A stretch of 64,000 nucleotides of DNA from Chitinilyticum piscinae (GTDB lineage: Bacteria > Pseudomonadota > Gammaproteobacteria > Burkholderiales > Chitinibacteraceae). Below the pieces are notes generated by a model that made no database searches, had not been told where the DNA came from, and was given only the letters and a program-made list of their open reading frames with translations. This document shows, one piece after another, positions 39,758 through 49,782 of this stretch (position 1 is the stretch's first letter; every line of letters starts with the position of its first letter). The DNA lies in assembly GCF_015223195.1 (NCBI RefSeq), contig NZ_JADFUA010000001.1, positions 763,858 to 827,857 on the forward strand, in the 5' to 3' direction. The position numbers and the translations under genes were made by a program.

Positions 39758-40975
39758 CTACATACGCTTGCCGGTATTAGTGGTGGCTGCCAGCTTCTTC
39801 TGGCCATACAGCCGCATCATGGCGTCATACAGCGCAACACCGCTCTGCTCGTAGCCTTCCGGCGAGAGGTGAACCAGATCCGGGCGCGCCAGTGGCGGAT
39901 TGCGGCTGGCCCAGTTCTGGATGGCGCAATTGCCGCCCATGGCGTCAGCCCAGTCCCAGTACAGCAGGTGTTCCTGATTGGCGATTTCGCGCTGGATCTG
40001 TTGCACGCGCAAGAGATTGGGCGCCAGACCGTACTGCTCGCAGCCTGCGGCGACACCGCCCCCCTTCTTGGCCGAGCTGGGGGCACCGACCAGCAGGATG
40101 GCCGCTTCCGGAGCGCCGCGCTTGAGCATGCGCACCGCCGAGCGCAACTCGGCTCGGTAAGTGACATCGACGAATTTGGGGTCGAAGGCTTCGTTGGTGC
40201 CGTAGGCCAGCACGATCAGATCGGGTTTGCGCCAGCGCAGCTGTTCCTGCAGCAGCTCCGGATTCCAGTTTTGCAGCACGCGCACCTGCGCACCGACAAT
40301 GCCCAGGCTGTCGTAGCTGACACCGGGGTTGAGCCGGTCGAGCACCAGTCCGCCCAACTCGCTGCCGTTGCCATCATTGCGCAGCCGGATCGGGGTAGCG
40401 GCCCACGGGCTGAACATCACATTGTATTCATCCCAGCCCGCCTTGCTGCGCGGAGGCAGATCCCGCGTTTCGCCATTGGGCAGTGTCACGGTCCAGCCAC
40501 CTGCTGCCGGACTGCTGCGTGTCCAGACCGACAGGCGCCACAGGCCGTCTGCCAGCGGCGTCTTCGGGGCGATTTCGATTTCCGCACCGGGAGCCGGGCG
40601 GTTGATGATCCCGCCGACCGGAAAATCACCGGGGCTGTATGTGCTGCGGCTGATCTGCGTCTGCCAGTCGCCCTTCATGCGCTGGAAGACCAGCGCCGAG
40701 CGCTGGTTGGTCACATAACCCGGTGTCAGCCAGCCGTAGCCGGCATCGCCGAAGCGAGCCTGCAGGCGTTCGCGGATTGCATGGGTGAAGTATTCGCCGG
40801 CGGTGTGCGAATCCCCCAGTTGCAGAATGCGTACCGTGTCGCTGCCGTTGCCGGATTCCAGCGCGGCAAACTGGCGCCAGACGCGCTGGGCATTCAGGTC
40901 GCCATAATCGATGATTTCGGCCGCGTGCAGCGGCCCGGCGAGGAAGGTGGCTGCCAGCAGCCAGTGCCGGATCAT
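39758..40975 (-). CDS. Periplasmic SGNH/GDSL hydrolase-like protein
   Basis: The 405-residue protein has a signal peptide (MIRHWLLAATFLAGPLHA) and an SGNH catalytic domain split by a beta-rich insertion of about 120 residues (100-220). The SGNH blocks are visible: LGDSHTAGEYF (nucleophile Ser), YGTNEA (oxyanion Asn) and DLVHLSPEGY (Asp/His). It overlaps the stop of the DUF459 gene by four bases. With the MBOAT protein and the DUF459 partner it forms a likely acyl transfer system acting on a periplasmic polymer; whether it adds or removes acetyl groups cannot be told from sequence. Confidence 0.85.
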   Translation of the reverse strand: MIRHWLLAATFLAGPLHAAEIIDYGDLNAQRVWRQFAALESGNGSDTVRILQLGDSHTAGEYFTHAIRERLQARFGDAGYGWLTPGYVTNQRSALVFQRMKGDWQTQISRSTYSPGDFPVGGIINRPAPGAEIEIAPKTPLADGLWRLSVWTRSSPAAGGWTVTLPNGETRDLPPRSKAGWDEYNVMFSPWAATPIRLRNDGNGSELGGLVLDRLNPGVSYDSLGIVGAQVRVLQNWNPELLQEQLRWRKPDLIVLAYGTNEAFDPKFVDVTYRAELRSAVRMLKRGAPEAAILLVGAPSSAKKGGGVAAGCEQYGLAPNLLRVQQIQREIANQEHLLYWDWADAMGGNCAIQNWASRNPPLARPDLVHLSPEGYEQSGVALYDAMMRLYGQKKLAATTNTGKRM

Positions 40976-42063
40976 TGCGCCTCCGCAGCGGCTGGCAGCT
41001 GGAACTGCGCGAGAATGGCGTCGGCGAGTTTTTGCTGGCCGGCGCGGGTGAAGTGCACGCCGTCGTCGGTACGCATGGCGACCTTGCGCTCACCTTCCAT
41101 GCGGTATTTGTTGTAGGCCGGTCCGCTGCCGACGATGTCCTGGGTCGGTACGAAACGCGCGTGCCGCTCCAGTGTTTCCCGCTCGAAAAGCTGGTTCAGA
41201 GTCGGCACACCGGCATTGATCTTGTCCTTGCCCATGGCGGGGGCGCCCAGCCAGACCACCTCGACCTTGTTGTTCTGCGCGTACTGCAGGATGTCGGCAA
41301 TGCGTGCTTCGTATTCACTTTGCCAGCGGGCCGTGCCGAAGCGCTCGTACTTGCCGTCCAGAATCATGTCCCAGGTATCGTTGGCGCCAAGGAAGACCAC
41401 CAGGGTCGTAATGCCGTGCTGCGGCACCAGTGTTTTGACTGTCTTGGGCCAGTCGAAATAGCCGGGATAGGTCAGGCCGGTACTCTGCTTGCTGGCGTCA
41501 ACGCTGGCGATGCCGTATTCGCGCTGCAAGGTGCGGATGGCCAGCGGCGCCACGCCCTGCATCATCGAATCGCCGATGAACAGGACCTTGTCTTTCTGTG
41601 TGAGAACGATCTTGCCGTCGTTGCTGCGACGTCCGCCGACCAGTGCAGGCGAGACGGGCTGGCCATGGGCGTACTGCGCCATATTGATGGCCAGCGCGCT
41701 GCGGCCGACGGATGAGACGCTCGCGGGCAGAGCCGAGCTCATGGCAAGAGATGGCAGGGTCGATGGGGTACTGACCGGACCATGCAGCAGGATATTCGCG
41801 GCGGTGACCATGCGGGTGCTGGCGGAATCCAGCCAGCCGGCAAGGCTGAGGAAGGGCTCTTCCATTTCCTGATTGATTTCGCTGCCCATCTGGCCGAGCG
41901 GGCTTTGCGAGAAGGGGGCCAGCCCGCTTTCGCGGTGGCGGGTCTGCTGCCAGTAGGTATCCAGCGCCGTATGCCGCAGCCACACGATCAGCAGCAGCGT
42001 GCCGATCAGGGTGAGCACGATCTGGAAGGGGGGCACGTTGGAGGGGGCGGTAGTGGCTTGCAT
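40972..42063 (-). CDS. Membrane-anchored DUF459 SGNH protein
   Basis: The 363-residue protein has an N-terminal uncleaved membrane anchor (FQIVLTLIGTLLLIVWL, about 13-29), a 110-residue linker, and a C-terminal SGNH domain: IGDSMMQGV, FLGANDTW and TDDGVHFTRAG. In MBOAT systems such as AlgIJX or PatAB a periplasmic SGNH enzyme takes the acyl group from the MBOAT and places it on the glycan, the role proposed here. It starts 18 bases after the MBOAT stop. A shorter relative is encoded at 15992-16792. Confidence 0.87.
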   Translation of the reverse strand: MQATTAPSNVPPFQIVLTLIGTLLLIVWLRHTALDTYWQQTRHRESGLAPFSQSPLGQMGSEINQEMEEPFLSLAGWLDSASTRMVTAANILLHGPVSTPSTLPSLAMSSALPASVSSVGRSALAINMAQYAHGQPVSPALVGGRRSNDGKIVLTQKDKVLFIGDSMMQGVAPLAIRTLQREYGIASVDASKQSTGLTYPGYFDWPKTVKTLVPQHGITTLVVFLGANDTWDMILDGKYERFGTARWQSEYEARIADILQYAQNNKVEVVWLGAPAMGKDKINAGVPTLNQLFERETLERHARFVPTQDIVGSGPAYNKYRMEGERKVAMRTDDGVHFTRAGQQKLADAILAQFQLPAAAEAQ

Positions 42064-42081
42064 CGCGAGAAACCGGTTCGA

Positions 42082-43515
42082 TCAATACTGATAGTAGATA
42101 AAGGCGGGCACCCCGCTGGGGGCGAGCATGATGATGCCCTGCACCAGCCCGGCCAGCGGCAGTGGCTTGATGTACCAGGGCAGGCGGCGAAGGCCGGCCA
42201 GCAGCCGGTCGCGCAAGCGGCTGCTGTAGCGCCAGAAGACGAAGCAGGCGGCAACAAAGGCAAATCCACCCAGGACGTTCAGTTGCAGGCGCGGCGAAAA
42301 ATGGCCCAGACTCGCCAGATAGTGGGTCGCATCCCAGGCGCTGTCGGCGCGGAAATAGACCCAGGCGATGCAGACAAAATGAAAGGTGATGACCATGGCC
42401 AGCCACTCCGGCATGTGCCACGGCGTTGCGCGGCGGCGCTGCAGTTCGTCCCAGGCATTCTGCACCACCATGCCGCCACCGTGCAGGGCGCCCCAGAACA
42501 GATACTTGATGCTTGCGCCATGCCAGAGACCGCTGATCACCATGGCACTGAACAGATTGAGCTGCGTGCGCCCCCAGCCGGCCCGGCTGCCACCCAGCGG
42601 GATATAGACGAAATCACGGATCCAGCTCGACAGCGTGATATGCCAGCGCCGCCAGAAATCGCGCAGGCTGGTCGCCAGATAGGGCTGGTTGAAATTCTGC
42701 GGCAGCTGGTAACCCAGCAGCAGTGCCAGTGCGATCACCAGTTCGGTGTAGCCGCTGAAATCAAAATAGATCTGCAGCGCGTAGGCATACATGCCCAGCA
42801 GCAGTTCCAGCCCGTGATAGGCATCCGGATTGGCGAACAGCGGGGTAACCCAGGCATCGGCCAGCCAGCTGGCCAGCCAGATTTTCTTGGTCAGCGCGGA
42901 AATGAGCAGCACCAGCGCCAGATCGGCTTCGCGGACGTGACGGGTTTCGGTGCTTTGCAATTGCTTGAGCAGGCCTTCCGGACGGCAGATCGGACCGGCC
43001 AGCAAGGAAGGAAAGAATGACAGATACAGCAGGGTGTCCAGGGGCTTGGCCGGCACGTATTTGCCTTTGGCCACACTGACGAGATAGGCAATGGCCTGGA
43101 AGGTGTAAAAGGAAATGCCGACCGGCATCAGGATATCAAGCGGTGGCAGTACCCAGCCAAGATGCAAGCCATCCATCAGGGTCTGCATCTGATCGCGGAA
43201 AAAATCGTAGTACTTGAATACGGCCAGATTGACGACCGAGGCCGCGATGCCGCCGGCAGTCCAGTGCCGGCGATAAGTCTGTGACCTGGCCATGCCTTGT
43301 ACGCACAGCATGACCACGCCGCTGTAGAGAAACAGGATCAGCGCGAAACGCCAGTCGAGCAAGCCATAAAAGAGATAACTGGCCGCCAGTAGCAGCCATT
43401 TCTGTGGCTGAACCCAGCGTTGCAATCCCCAGTAGAGCAAGAGAAAAGCGGTAAAGGCCAGTGCGAATTCGGGGGAAAGGTAACTCATGGGCGGGTGTGT
43501 AATGCAATTCGCCAT
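42082..43515 (-). CDS. MBOAT family O-acyltransferase (AlgI-like)
   Basis: The protein of about 477 residues is a multi-pass membrane acyltransferase. Signatures are FKYYDFF, LMPVGISFYTFQAIAY, FFPSLLAGPICR, the conserved IYFDFSGYTELVI, FWRRWHITLSSWIRDFVYIPLGG, and the catalytic His in GLWHGAS. AlgI-like MBOATs move acetyl from cytoplasmic donors across the membrane for polysaccharide or peptidoglycan O-acetylation. ATGs at 43518 and 43515 follow AAGGTAGA; an ATG at 43488 (MSYLSPEF) is another possible start. It heads the operon MBOAT-DUF459-SGNH-membrane protein, with no polysaccharide polymerase nearby. Confidence 0.93.
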   Translation of the reverse strand: MANCITHPPMSYLSPEFALAFTAFLLLYWGLQRWVQPQKWLLLAASYLFYGLLDWRFALILFLYSGVVMLCVQGMARSQTYRRHWTAGGIAASVVNLAVFKYYDFFRDQMQTLMDGLHLGWVLPPLDILMPVGISFYTFQAIAYLVSVAKGKYVPAKPLDTLLYLSFFPSLLAGPICRPEGLLKQLQSTETRHVREADLALVLLISALTKKIWLASWLADAWVTPLFANPDAYHGLELLLGMYAYALQIYFDFSGYTELVIALALLLGYQLPQNFNQPYLATSLRDFWRRWHITLSSWIRDFVYIPLGGSRAGWGRTQLNLFSAMVISGLWHGASIKYLFWGALHGGGMVVQNAWDELQRRRATPWHMPEWLAMVITFHFVCIAWVYFRADSAWDATHYLASLGHFSPRLQLNVLGGFAFVAACFVFWRYSSRLRDRLLAGLRRLPWYIKPLPLAGLVQGIIMLAPSGVPAFIYYQY

Positions 43516-43773
43516 CATTCTACCTTGCAGCGGGTGCAATGTGTGGCGTTACGGCTGAAAGGCGACGACTTTTCTTGGCGCCATGCGGATATTTCCGGCC
43601 TGCCTGGGGATGATCGGGGCGGGCTGCCGCTTGGCTGGCCCTGAGGCTGACACCTTGTCGGCGATAGTGTGAAATCGATCACGGCAAGGCTTGCAATTCG
43701 CTTTGAAATGCTTACTCAAAAATTGCGGGTGTGGTATTTTGCGTCCGCCAATAACATGTACAAAGGAAAAACC

Positions 43774-44663: not shown

Positions 44664-45917
44664 ATGTCCGATTCCCACGACCTTGCCGATCTGCTCGCGC
44701 CCGGCCTCGCGCCCGCCGACATTCCCGCGCTCAGCGCCCTGCTGGGCGCGCGCGGCCTGTTGTCGGCCTTCATCACGCTGTTTCGTGGTGGCGAGGACGA
44801 GGTGCTGCTGCGCATTCTAGTGCTGCGCGAAATCGGTCTGCGCGCCGCTGCGCCGCGCTGGTCCAGCCAGGAGTTGCTCAACCATTTCGCCTATCTGAAC
44901 GCGACCAAGCTCGAAACCGTGCTCAAGCGTTTCAGCAAGGACGGCCTCCTGGTGTGGGACAGTGACGACCAGCTTTACAGCCTGTCGACCACCGGCCGCG
45001 TCGTGCTGGCCGCCATTTCCAGCCTGACCCAGTTTGCCGAGGAGGATGCCGAGCTCGGTTACCTCACCGCGCAGGTGGCGGCCGGTCAGTCTGTCGGCGA
45101 TGTGGCGCCCGACGCGCTGCAGCACCTGCTGGCGCGCCTCAACGAATTGCACTCCGATTTCGAGGCTGCGCTCGAATCGCAATCCGAATTCCAGATCAAG
45201 GCCGCGCGCAAGCAGCTTGATAGCGTCTGGCGCTGGGTCGAAAAGGGCACCGAAATCATCCGCAGCGTGCTCGAAGACGAACATACCGGCTACGCCGAGC
45301 ATCAGGTGGCGCAGGCGATCGCGCTGGCGCAGGCGCGCATGCTGCGCCTCACCAGCGTGTTCCACCGGCGCCTGAACGAACTGGCTGCGCAGCGCGTGCA
45401 TCTGGGCGAATCGGGGCTGACGTCTAGCAATATCGCCGACTGGCTGCGCAACCAGAGCCAGGACACGCTGGCCAATCTGGGGCGTGATCTGCTGAGCTTC
45501 CACCCCGAGCCCAGCTGCGTGGTGTCCGACGTACTGCTCGACATCACCGAATTCGAGCTGCTGGAACGCGAGCGCGACAGCCACGAGCTCATGGCACTGC
45601 CGGCCTCGCAGGCGGCCCTGGAGGTCGGCGAAGTCGAAGCCGAACAGCTGCTCGCCGCCGATGCCTTTTATACTGACTTGCAGGGTATTGCCTCAGAGGT
45701 AACTATTTCAAAGGCTGTACTGGCTGATACCTACGAAGAAACCGTTTACCGCCTCTCGCTGCTGTCGCTCTTAGGCGACGCCGAAGTGGCGCTGGAAAAT
45801 TCGGTGGTCGCCGACATCGTGCGCCTGCCCTTCGCGCTGGAGCTCGATGCCAGCGTCGAAACCCTCGATCACCCCGCCGTCGCCGCGATGACCCGCGGGC
45901 GGCTGCGACCGTTTTGA
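44664..45917 (+). CDS. mksF: Condensin kleisin-like subunit MksF
   Basis: The 417-residue protein is the first gene of a three-gene SMC operon and matches the MukF/MksF/JetA type. It has an N-terminal winged helix that includes KLETVLKRFSKDGLLVWD, a long helical middle (about 130-300, with EALESQSEFQIKAARKQLDSVW) and a C-terminal domain that would contact the SMC head. It is mostly alpha-helical with no membrane segment. It is followed by mksE after 7 bases. Subfamily assignment rests on gene order and architecture. The ribosome site before the ATG is weak. Confidence 0.85.
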   Translation: MSDSHDLADLLAPGLAPADIPALSALLGARGLLSAFITLFRGGEDEVLLRILVLREIGLRAAAPRWSSQELLNHFAYLNATKLETVLKRFSKDGLLVWDSDDQLYSLSTTGRVVLAAISSLTQFAEEDAELGYLTAQVAAGQSVGDVAPDALQHLLARLNELHSDFEAALESQSEFQIKAARKQLDSVWRWVEKGTEIIRSVLEDEHTGYAEHQVAQAIALAQARMLRLTSVFHRRLNELAAQRVHLGESGLTSSNIADWLRNQSQDTLANLGRDLLSFHPEPSCVVSDVLLDITEFELLERERDSHELMALPASQAALEVGEVEAEQLLAADAFYTDLQGIASEVTISKAVLADTYEETVYRLSLLSLLGDAEVALENSVVADIVRLPFALELDASVETLDHPAVAAMTRGRLRPF

Positions 45918-45924
45918 GACCCCC

Positions 45925-46587
45925 ATGGATCAGGCATTGAATATCCTGCTGGCCAAATTGCTGGCGCAACGCTTTATCCCGCGCAGCGACCCGCTGGCGC
46001 GGCGCGCGCTGGTCGACGAGACCTTCCGTGAAGGGCTTGAGCGCCGGCTGGACGACTGCGGCATGCAGTTGCTGGAGAACCCTTACGCGCAATACATCGC
46101 CATCGGCCTGAAGCCCGAAATGGAAGACTGGGTGTTCGGCGAGGGCGAGAACTGGCTGTCGAACAATATGGGCCTGCCGCGCGATGCGATTGCACTGCTG
46201 GTGGTGGTGTGGGCGCTGATTATCCTGCCCAAGCGCGAGCGCCAGATTGCGCGCGCGGCGCAGGTGGGCGATACGCAATCGGACCTGTTCGGCGCGGACA
46301 AGCCGATCACGCATGGGGAGGAAGTCTCCAGTGGTGTGCCGGAAGACGCGATCTACGCCGATTTCGGCAAGAAGCTCGGCGGCAAGGCGCGTTTTGCGAT
46401 GAACCTTGGGCAACTGGCCAAGCTGGGCTTTGTGGTTCGCCGCAACAAGATGATTTACGAGGGGCCCTTGCTTGATTTGATGCTTGATTACTCGAAGCTC
46501 GCACCACGCATCATCAATGGTGCCTTGGCCGAGGTGCTGCAATTGTCCGGAACGCAACTGGCGCTTGATACCGAGGGGGAGGACTGA
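45925..46587 (+). CDS. mksE: Condensin accessory subunit MksE
   Basis: The 220-residue protein has the two winged-helix layout expected of MukE/MksE/JetB: FREGLERRLDDCGMQLLENPYAQYI in the first part, and LGGKARFAMNLGQLAKLGFVVRR in the second. An acidic surface is visible at the C-terminus. It would dimerise with MksF to regulate the SMC ATPase. It lies between mksF and mksB, and the mksB ATG starts directly after its stop. Length is normal. Confidence 0.85.
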   Translation: MDQALNILLAKLLAQRFIPRSDPLARRALVDETFREGLERRLDDCGMQLLENPYAQYIAIGLKPEMEDWVFGEGENWLSNNMGLPRDAIALLVVVWALIILPKRERQIARAAQVGDTQSDLFGADKPITHGEEVSSGVPEDAIYADFGKKLGGKARFAMNLGQLAKLGFVVRRNKMIYEGPLLDLMLDYSKLAPRIINGALAEVLQLSGTQLALDTEGED

Positions 46588-46588
46588 G

Positions 46589-49390
46589 ATGTTCCAGATC
46601 CGCGAACTCGAAATGATCCACTGGGATTTCTGGCAGGCCATCAAGGTGCCGCTGGATTCGCAGATCGTCACCATCGTCGGCCCGAACGGCTCCGGCAAGA
46701 CCACGCTGCTCGATGCCTTGCGCACGCTGTTGGCGCTGAAGTGCTCGGGGCGGCGCGATTACAAGCGCTATGTGCGCAACAACCGTGCGCAGTACGCCTG
46801 GCTGCGCGGCGTGGTGAACAATCCGCAGCGCGCCGGTGGCGGGCTGTTTCCCTATCTGTTTTTCCCGGCCACCAGCGACGTGGTCACGCTGTTCTGCCGC
46901 ATCAAGAAGCAGGGCGGTGACTGGGTACGTCAGTACGCGATCGCCGAGGGCGACGTGCAGCTGGTCGACGGCGTGGAAAGCCAGCTCTCCTGGCTGGGCG
47001 TGAACGAATACCGCCGCCGCCTGGAAGCCGCCGGGCTCACGCCGGCGATTGCCGAGGTGCTGGCGCTGGAGCAGGGCGATACCGACAAGCTGTGCGAATA
47101 CTCGCCGAAAGCCTTGCTCGATCTGGTGTTCCAGGTGTTCGGCGACAAGCAGGTGCTCGATTACTACCAGGAAGCCAAACTGCGCCTGAAGGAAGCCGAA
47201 GATGAGCTGGGCAAGATGGAGCAGCAGCTCACCACGCTGGGGCTGGAAGCCGAACGCCTGCGGCTGCGCGCCAACAGCTTTGTCGAATGGCAGAGCCTGC
47301 ACGCCGACGTGATCCGGCTGGAGCAGGATGTGATTCCGGCGCTGCGCTACGTCGAGCAGTGGGACAGCCTGCGCGGCTACATCAACCAGTTCCGCGGCGC
47401 GCGCCGGTCCTTGCGCGAAAAGCAGAACGAGCTGGACGAGCTGGATCGGCAGTTCCACGCGCTGGATGCACTGCTCTCCAGCGCGCACGGTGGCGAGCAG
47501 GCCGCCAAGGCGCAATACGATGAGGCCTTCACGGCGTTCCAGGTTGCGCGCGATGTGGCGCGCGATACCGAAAAGCTGCTCAAGGAAGCGGAGCGCCTGC
47601 GCGCCCTGGCGGCCAGTGAACACGGCAGCGACGCCGTTGCACTCGCCGACCAGCTGGCGGCACTGAAGGAGCAGGAGTCCCAGCTCAAGCAGGCGCTGCG
47701 CGACATGAAGACCGAGCGCGAGCAATTGTCCGAAACCCAGTTCGCCCTGCAGCAGGGTCGTGCGCCGTCGCCGGATTTCGTGCGCAGTTTGCGCGCCGCG
47801 CTGGACGAGGCCGGCATCGGCCACCACATGCTGACCGAGCTGGTCGAGGTGCGCGATTCCAGCTGGCAGGAGGCCATCGAGGCGCTGCTGGCGCCGTACC
47901 GCCACATCGTGCTGCTCAGCCGTGACACGGACAAGCGCCGCGCGTGGGAAATCGGCCAGCAGCTGCGCTACCGCCACTTCATCGTCCCGGATGTCGAGCC
48001 TGCGCCGCGCGCCAATGCCGGCTCGGTGCTGGAAATCGTCGACTTCCGCGGCCCGGTGCCGGCCTGGCTGACCGGTCTGCTCAACCGCACGCAGCGCGTG
48101 CGCTCGGTCGAGGCTGGCGCGCATGTCGATGGCGACTGGATCACCCGCGAGGGATTCCACAAGGAGCGGCGCGGTGCGCGCGACATCAGCGTGCGCCCCG
48201 GCGACCATGCCTTCGGCGAAGCCGCACGCCTGTCGCGCCTGACCGCGACCAGCCGTCGTCTGAAAGAGCTGAACGAGGAAATCCTCGACGAAGAAACCCG
48301 CCTGCAGGGCATCGCCGGCGAAATCAGCACGCTGCAGAAGCAGCTGATGGGCATGCAGGCCGTGGTGCAGCTGGCCGCACGGCAGGAAGAATTCGCACTG
48401 GCCGCCGCGCGCTGGCCGGACGACGAGGCGCGAGCCCAGCAGGCCGGCGCGGCCTTCGCCGCCGCGCAGGCCGCGTGGGAAACCGCGCGCGCGCAGCAGG
48501 CCGACGAACGCGTGCAGCACGGCCGGCTGGCCGACCAGCGCGAACGGCTGGCGAAAGCGGTGGCGCAGCAGCTCGAACAACTGGCGCGCCAGCGTGACGA
48601 ACAGAGCCGGCTGATGCGCAATCTGCGCGCCGCCAAGAAGGAGCTGCCCGAGTCGCTGGCGAGCGCCAGTGCGTTGCGCGAGCTGAAGGACAAGTTCAAC
48701 AGCGTGCAGGCCGTGCGCTACCTGATCGAGCAGGAAAGGCAGCGGCTGGACGGCGGCGACTGGGAAACTGATCCCGCCATCCTCGCACGCCGTGACAAGC
48801 TGGCCAACGACTACGCGCTGCTGGAGCGCGACGCGCTGCAGCACCGGCAGGATGCCGAGCGCACCGGTCAGCTGACCGACGAAGCGCGCGGCGCCTACAT
48901 CAACAAGCTGCGCGCGACCGTGCGCGCCTATGGAAAGAATCTCGCCAAGCTCGGCGAACTCTCCGGTATCCATGTCGAAACCGAACTGCCGCATCTGGAC
49001 AACGACGACCTGACGCTGGCGCAGGCCGGCCTCACCGTGCGCTTCAACTTCGACCAGAAGGGCATGATGGGCCTGAACGACGGCGAGGCGTCCGGCGGCC
49101 AGCAGGTGATGAAGTCGTTGATCTTGTTGATTGGCCTGATGATGGACGAGAGCAATCCGTCCGGCTTCGTGTTCATCGACGAACCCTTTGCCCACCTCGA
49201 CATCTTCAACATCGACCGCGTGGGCGGCTTCCTGAAAGCCACCGAGGCGCAATACCTGATCACTACGCCGCTGACGCACAACACCAATGTCTACGGGCCT
49301 TCCGAGCTGACGCTGACCACGCGCAAGAAACAGCCGGGCGAAACCTGGGCGCCGGTGATCATGCAGACACGCCGGCGCGTGGCGGCGTGA
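46589..49390 (+). CDS. mksB: SMC-like condensin ATPase MksB
   Basis: The 933-residue SMC protein has Walker A GPNGSGKT at 31-38, two long coiled-coil arms rich in Glu/Arg/Gln, a hinge-like segment near 410-480, the signature EASGGQQ near 830 and Walker B GFVFIDEPFAHLD near 860. It is shorter than MukB and fits the MksB/JetC class. GGGGGAGGACTGAG before the ATG at 46589 decides the start. The next gene overlaps by four bases and encodes an NTF2-like protein, not a Toprim nuclease (JetD/MksG), so plasmid cleavage as in Wadjet is not expected from this operon as seen. Chromosome organisation is the likeliest role. Confidence 0.9.
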   Translation: MFQIRELEMIHWDFWQAIKVPLDSQIVTIVGPNGSGKTTLLDALRTLLALKCSGRRDYKRYVRNNRAQYAWLRGVVNNPQRAGGGLFPYLFFPATSDVVTLFCRIKKQGGDWVRQYAIAEGDVQLVDGVESQLSWLGVNEYRRRLEAAGLTPAIAEVLALEQGDTDKLCEYSPKALLDLVFQVFGDKQVLDYYQEAKLRLKEAEDELGKMEQQLTTLGLEAERLRLRANSFVEWQSLHADVIRLEQDVIPALRYVEQWDSLRGYINQFRGARRSLREKQNELDELDRQFHALDALLSSAHGGEQAAKAQYDEAFTAFQVARDVARDTEKLLKEAERLRALAASEHGSDAVALADQLAALKEQESQLKQALRDMKTEREQLSETQFALQQGRAPSPDFVRSLRAALDEAGIGHHMLTELVEVRDSSWQEAIEALLAPYRHIVLLSRDTDKRRAWEIGQQLRYRHFIVPDVEPAPRANAGSVLEIVDFRGPVPAWLTGLLNRTQRVRSVEAGAHVDGDWITREGFHKERRGARDISVRPGDHAFGEAARLSRLTATSRRLKELNEEILDEETRLQGIAGEISTLQKQLMGMQAVVQLAARQEEFALAAARWPDDEARAQQAGAAFAAAQAAWETARAQQADERVQHGRLADQRERLAKAVAQQLEQLARQRDEQSRLMRNLRAAKKELPESLASASALRELKDKFNSVQAVRYLIEQERQRLDGGDWETDPAILARRDKLANDYALLERDALQHRQDAERTGQLTDEARGAYINKLRATVRAYGKNLAKLGELSGIHVETELPHLDNDDLTLAQAGLTVRFNFDQKGMMGLNDGEASGGQQVMKSLILLIGLMMDESNPSGFVFIDEPFAHLDIFNIDRVGGFLKATEAQYLITTPLTHNTNVYGPSELTLTTRKKQPGETWAPVIMQTRRRVAA

Positions 49391-49782
49391 CGGTTCCGCA
49401 GGATCTGGCCGACTGGCTGGAAGAGTACAGCGCCGCCTTCAACGCGCTCGATGGCGATGCTGTCGCCGAGCTGTACGTCGAGCCCTGCCAGATCGTGCAG
49501 GGTGGGCGTGTCGCGCACTGGCCGGATCGCGCCGCAGTGGCGGCGAATATGCGTGCCTTGTGTGCGCAGTACCGCGGCCAGGGGTATCAGCAAGCGCATG
49601 CAGAAATCCGGCATTGCCGAATGCTGGGCGAGATGAATGCACTACTTGATGTGTTCTGGCGGGTCAGCCGCAGTGGTGAGCGATCGCCGTGGAATTTCTG
49701 CACGGCCTATCATTTGCTGAGAACGGCACAGGGCTGGCAGGTGCTGTTGTGTGTGGCTTACGAGGAAATGCCGCTGGGCTGA
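49387..49782 (+). CDS. SnoaL/NTF2-like protein coupled to mksB
   Basis: The 131-residue protein starts at a GTG overlapping the mksB stop as GTGA. The fold is NTF2/SnoaL-like: LEEYSAAFNALDGDAVAELY is the first helix pair, followed by strands ending FCTAYHLLRTAQGWQVLLCVAYEE. No catalytic residues were identified. The gene converges on and overlaps the GGDEF gene (49758) by 25 bases. Its physical coupling to a condensin operon is unusual; a functional link is inference. Confidence 0.8.
   Translation: MTVPQDLADWLEEYSAAFNALDGDAVAELYVEPCQIVQGGRVAHWPDRAAVAANMRALCAQYRGQGYQQAHAEIRHCRMLGEMNALLDVFWRVSRSGERSPWNFCTAYHLLRTAQGWQVLLCVAYEEMPLG

Follow-up and report, generated by a model that had tools for sequence, protein, structure and literature searches.

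The mksFEB operon of Chitinilyticum piscinae probably encodes a nuclease-less MksBEF complex that acts as a second chromosome condensin, and the small NTF2/SnoaL-like gene that follows mksB is, within this explanation, a chance neighbour. The operon lies in the window, by which we mean the whole stretch of 64,000 nucleotides that was analysed, and it belongs to an Mks lineage that occurs in two forms, mksFEB and mksFEBG, the G gene of which would encode a divergent nuclease of the JetD/MksG kind; the window would carry the form without the nuclease.

Organization of the mks operon

Four open reading frames were confirmed on the forward strand of the window. These are mksF (44664..45917, 417 aa), which encodes the putative kleisin and is the first operon gene in relatives as well; mksE (45925..46587, 220 aa), predicted from its modelled fold to encode a kite (MukE/JetB-like) subunit; mksB (46589..49390, 933 aa, with its ATG at 46589), for an SMC-type ATPase; and an NTF2/SnoaL-like gene (49387..49782, 131 aa). 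The order of kleisin, MukE-like and SMC genes given in a preliminary description of this DNA was therefore found as described, the kleisin role of MksF being read from order and size. The same description placed a GTGA-coupled NTF2/SnoaL gene in fourth position, and the overlap is indeed there: the GTG start codon at 49387 overlaps the TGA stop of mksB (49388-49390), in the place which MksG takes in some relatives. Translational coupling of the two genes would follow from this 4-base overlap.

The genome (3.65 Mb) is 99.99% complete. Its nearest named genome is that of Chitinilyticum aquatile (G011), with an MksB that is 95% identical, which is also the sole other member of the genus among the genomes searched. 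In the NCBI taxonomy, Chitinilyticum and Iodobacter are both placed in Chitinibacteraceae, Neisseriales. Elsewhere in the window, on the minus strand (39758-43539), an MBOAT acyltransferase gene (Pfam match) stands beside two genes whose products, judged by eye, resemble SGNH-type proteins, an arrangement also seen in clusters for polysaccharide acetylation.

MksB matches SMC_N of Pfam (E 9.5e-16) and keeps GPNGSGKT (31-38), ASGGQQ (834-839) and FVFIDEPFAHLD (860-871) in columns that are invariant in 13 aligned MksB proteins. We take these to be the Walker A motif, the signature and the Walker B stretch, respectively, and by these features MksB is predicted to be an SMC-type ATPase with its motifs intact. 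MksE and MksF have no Pfam family at E 0.1. The AlphaFold model of MksE is of moderate confidence (mean pLDDT 67); its first three PDB matches are the JetB kite of two Wadjet complexes (8as8 and 8dk1, E 5.4e-5 to 1.2e-4), with TM-scores of just ~0.4 to the JetB chains, followed by Nse1/3 and ScpB. Wadjet JetB is thus nearest to the model, and with moderate confidence MksE is predicted to be a kite subunit encoded beside the SMC gene. The model of MksF was poor (mean pLDDT 50) and unfit for structure search, and MksF is a putative kleisin by its gene order, size and conservation, with 61-95% identity across the family loci measured. Profile searches of PDB sequences with MksE, MksF and MksG returned no usable match. 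Between the window genome and its sibling G011, dN/dS was 0.09 for MksB and 0.08 for MksE; both are under strong purifying selection.

Conservation of the complex

MksE was present in 42 of the 43 genomes of the family, and the sole genome with no match is an assembly of 680 contigs with 6% contamination. Across the order, the MksE profile matched 62 of 399 genomes (13 of the 62 belong to the family), and across the class it matched 2 of 369, namely the window genome and the distant genome G409, the latter added by the profile after a single-sequence MksE search of 274 class genomes had matched the window genome alone. We also compared 43 named loci, several of which duplicate genomes of the numbered set and are not independent of them. 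MksB is nearly absent from plasmids: at E 1e-20, only 2 of 72,556 plasmid records had a match, each of them partial. The window genome also carries a canonical SMC, which scored 1017 bits with a cut-off of 567.

Other genes lie within the operons of relatives. A gene of 218 aa (P0005) is found between mksF and mksE, for example at L114:13884-14540 in C. aquatile; it is present in 19 of the 43 family genomes, in 15 of which it occupies that position, and its presence switches at least 7 times on a tree of 40 family rows, from which row L101 was omitted. The idea that P0005 might be an additional subunit of Mks was dropped, since it is patchy, has no Pfam match and was not found in the window genome. 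A GNAT acetyltransferase gene separates mksE from mksB at L104:5411-5944, the single locus tested, and gaps of similar length between mksE and mksB were seen in several other genomes.

MksG in the relatives of Chitinilyticum

In some relatives the slot directly after mksB holds a protein of 405-420 aa, namely in three of four genomes of the Silvimonas genus, one of two of the Chitinolyticbacter genus, and the distant G409. These proteins carry what we take to be Toprim-like motifs. The PADLOC models of JetD matched all five of the slot proteins scanned (best 7.4e-14), and at E <= 1 the Pfam families DUF2399 and JetD_C matched three and one of the five, respectively. No MksG family match was found in NCBIfam, and PDB sequences likewise gave nothing for MksG. 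By its profile matches, the slot protein is predicted to be a divergent JetD/MksG Toprim nuclease. A profile that we built from MksG found it beside mksB in four of the 43 family genomes; two weak matches within the family are the JetD of separate loci. A genome search with JetD_C misses the nuclease in all four of the family genomes that carry it beside mksB. The view that this lineage has no MksG, which had been drawn from JetD_C matches, was overturned by the genes after mksB in G409 and Silvimonas. A tblastn search of the named loci found MksG after mksB in 5 of 43: two of Silvimonas, two of Pseudogulbenkiania (L165 and L175) and one of Aquitalea (L168).

Across the order, our MksG profile matched at least 16 of 399 genomes, at least 14 of them strongly, these counts being lower bounds as at most four first-look candidates were scored per genome. 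MksB lies beside MksG in 13 of the 14 strongly matching genomes. One genome, G710, has a solitary MksG-like gene (L221, about 1072-2172), and the 7 kb read upstream of it contain no mks gene. Because an MksG hit was obtained in 12 of the 62 MksE-bearing genomes of the order and none in the other 50, three-gene operons without such a hit outnumber those with one, and the operon of the window is therefore ordinary. MksG was absent from the vicinity of mksB in all 20 of the MksG-negative order loci inspected. Several copies of MksG have altered Toprim residues: the two copies of Pseudogulbenkiania have glutamine in place of the glutamate, L211 has histidine for the second aspartate of its DPD motif, and the aspartates are lost or replaced in the G710 copy. 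These changes look like nuclease decay. Among the papers searched, none mentioned MksB together with Chromobacterium, or DUF2399 together with Wadjet.

The window genome has no match to JetD_C, to our MksG profile or to DUF2399, although one that has diverged beyond the reach of these three models may have been overlooked there. The preliminary description had noted that the Toprim gene JetD/MksG is missing from the operon, as it is, and had proposed to look for JetD at other loci of the genome; none was found with any of the three models.

Separate Wadjet loci and comparison with known systems

JetD_C matches were found in 10 of the 43 family genomes, each on a different contig from mksE or separated from it by over 300 kb. 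In nine of these ten loci a frame of 1122-1647 aa lies directly 5' of the nuclease gene, and in one the frame is split. At L186 (G037), the SMC-like frame before the JetD_C gene consists of two overlapping frames, unlike that of L185 from the same genus. When genes of two JetD_C loci (L181 and L183) were scanned with PADLOC, JetC and JetD were recognized in both and JetB in L181, the only one of the two whose kite gene was covered by the JetB scan. A single genome can thus contain both a Wadjet locus and an MksFEB operon that lacks the nuclease.

The window operon shares its order of kleisin, kite and SMC genes with MksBEFG and with Wadjet JetABCD, and some of its relatives carry a JetD-type nuclease after mksB; it differs from both in having no Toprim nuclease MksG/JetD, with none found in the genome. 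Scanned with PADLOC, MksF had no JetA match, MksE matched JetB at E 0.041, and MksB gave partial JetC matches (best 1e-19), so the JetA, JetB and JetC models did not assign the operon to MksBEFG/Wadjet. MksB is also shorter (933 aa) than the two family JetC proteins tested with PADLOC (1122 and 1130 aa). With the MksBEF of Pseudomonas aeruginosa, the window shares an SMC protein, a kite, a putative kleisin, the lack of a nuclease and an SMC elsewhere in the genome, a kinship that is one of architecture and not of a tree; it differs in the genus-specific NTF2 gene that follows mksB.

Proposed function of the nuclease-less complex

MksBEF of P. aeruginosa is described in PMC7485682 as a second chromosome condensin beside SMC. 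PMC10123090 treats C. glutamicum, in which MksG is present, a case that cautions against expecting chromosome folding from all MksBEF complexes. In the mechanism that we propose, mksFEB would encode an MksBEF complex made of the SMC ATPase MksB, the kite MksE and the putative kleisin MksF. This complex would load on the chromosome and extrude or bridge DNA loops beside SMC without cutting DNA. Chromosome loading, loop extrusion and a chromosome function are most likely for the complex of the window, in view of the presence of MksE in nearly all family genomes, the constraint on MksB and MksE, the negative nuclease searches, and a canonical SMC in the same genome, as in P. aeruginosa. The condensin half of the earlier suggestion of a chromosome-organising condensin with a new small subunit is thus kept, as a nuclease-less complex most likely at work on the chromosome, and its other half, an NTF2 subunit, is given up, since only two of the 43 family genomes have that gene next to mksB.

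The conservation and constraint of the complex are compatible also with a non-cutting defence, for example plasmid silencing by compaction. We regard it as unlikely that MksFEB still serves plasmid defence in Chitinilyticum, through compaction or through an unrelated host nuclease: the MksG-bearing relatives do look like Wadjet-type systems and the ATPase motifs of MksB are intact, but no JetD-type nuclease was found in the window genome with three models, and MksE is present in 42 of 43 family genomes whereas JetD_C loci are patchy (10 of 43). A defence variant with the NTF2 protein as its effector, also suggested earlier, fails on the distribution of that gene, which is not conserved with mksB outside the genus.

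The NTF2/SnoaL-like gene

The NTF2-like protein scores above the Pfam cut-off for DUF6841 and SnoaL_3, and by these cut-offs it resembles other small NTF2/SnoaL-like proteins, being notable for its position alone. The gene is real and under purifying selection within the genus, because the identical GTGA overlap with mksB is kept in C. aquatile and its dN/dS between the two genomes is 0.23. It evolves faster than its neighbour (76% identity for the NTF2 protein vs 95% for MksB, window genome vs G011).

A relative of the NTF2 protein (E <= 1e-3) was found in 31 of the 43 family genomes, and the gene adjoins mksB in just two, both of the genus Chitinilyticum; among the 43 named loci it adjoins mksB in one, again that of the sibling C. 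aquatile, and it was near mksB in none of the 20 inspected order loci without MksG. The relatives elsewhere (45-52% identity) adjoin unrelated genes, which were named by eye: they lie 3' of a MOSC-like gene in two genomes of the Chitinolyticbacter genus, 3' of a RecQ-like gene in Andreprevotia chitinilytica, and between yidC-like and mnmE-like genes in six Iodobacter and two Deefgea genomes. An antisense NTF2 match of 32% inside mksF of L093/L158 was taken as chance. The gene that comes after mksB in other genera is one for an RlmL-like methyltransferase, a YjbR gene or another (the first two assignments were confirmed with Pfam in one example each), and the RlmL-like gene starts 3 bases before the end of mksB in 12 of 41 loci.

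Conservation of the NTF2 gene after mksB in relatives, the check proposed in the preliminary description, was accordingly not seen beyond Chitinilyticum (2 of 43 family genomes, from one genus; none of 20 order loci), and a conserved small subunit or an alternative effector is not supported. The protein as a new Mks subunit was rejected, its adjacency being confined to the genus in the loci examined. A narrower form of the idea, in which the protein is a true MksB subunit or regulator specific to the Chitinilyticum lineage and coupled in translation for stoichiometry, would account for the GTGA overlap that the two Chitinilyticum genomes share and for the purifying selection. We consider it very improbable, with adjacency limited to two family genomes, sequence divergence faster than that of MksB, relatives placed by unrelated genes elsewhere, and other genes, such as the RlmL-like one, that also overlap the mksB stop. 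The NTF2 gene looks like a single-domain chance neighbour of mksB in Chitinilyticum.

History of mksG

To what extent the nuclease gene was lost or gained was estimated on an MksB tree of 78 rows, 21 of which have MksG; this was a quick tree whose long branches in some cases join one another, and it omits L081 (in which the MksB frame is not closed) and L222 (a 27-bit match alone). Under free parsimony the presence of MksG switches at least 9 times, and a history of losses alone needs 21. Chitinilyticum may have lost mksG or may never have had it, and losses are not separable from gains here. The line of Chitinilyticum may have lacked MksG from the start, with some of its relatives gaining the gene after mksB; we lean away from this history, which in any case leaves the function of the complex unchanged. 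The smaller number of changes under free parsimony (9 vs 21) speaks for such gains, as does the fact that the smallest clade with all four MksG-bearing family rows does not include Chitinilyticum. MksG is, however, found in the identical slot in distant lineages, with frames that overlap in 7 of 21 loci, and its distances track those of MksB, as joint inheritance predicts (Spearman 0.54 over 20 genomes, with none of 9999 permutations as high). This correlation suggests that MksG and MksB were inherited jointly, and shared taxonomy could give part of it.

Closely related pairs differ in mksG. In the genus of Chitinolyticbacter albus, L083 is without mksG and L084 has it, with MksB 95.8% identical; in the Silvimonas genus, L107 is without it and L106 and L109 have it, with MksB 96.5% and 95.1% identical to that of L107, respectively. 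It is conceivable, at a little less than an even chance in our estimate, that one Mks lineage has switched repeatedly between mksFEBG for plasmid cutting and mksFEB for chromosome folding, and that Chitinilyticum would represent an end state in which a defence system has turned into housekeeping.

Significance

The window itself offers a lesson of caution, as gene order, taken alone, had let a neighbouring gene pass for a subunit. Its operon is an ordinary member of the lineage, and the lineage, in which both forms occur, is the useful part and worth following. Sister species with MksB ~96% identical, with and without mksG, make the switch testable, and in such near-identical complexes the proposal could be tested by the addition or removal of a single gene.
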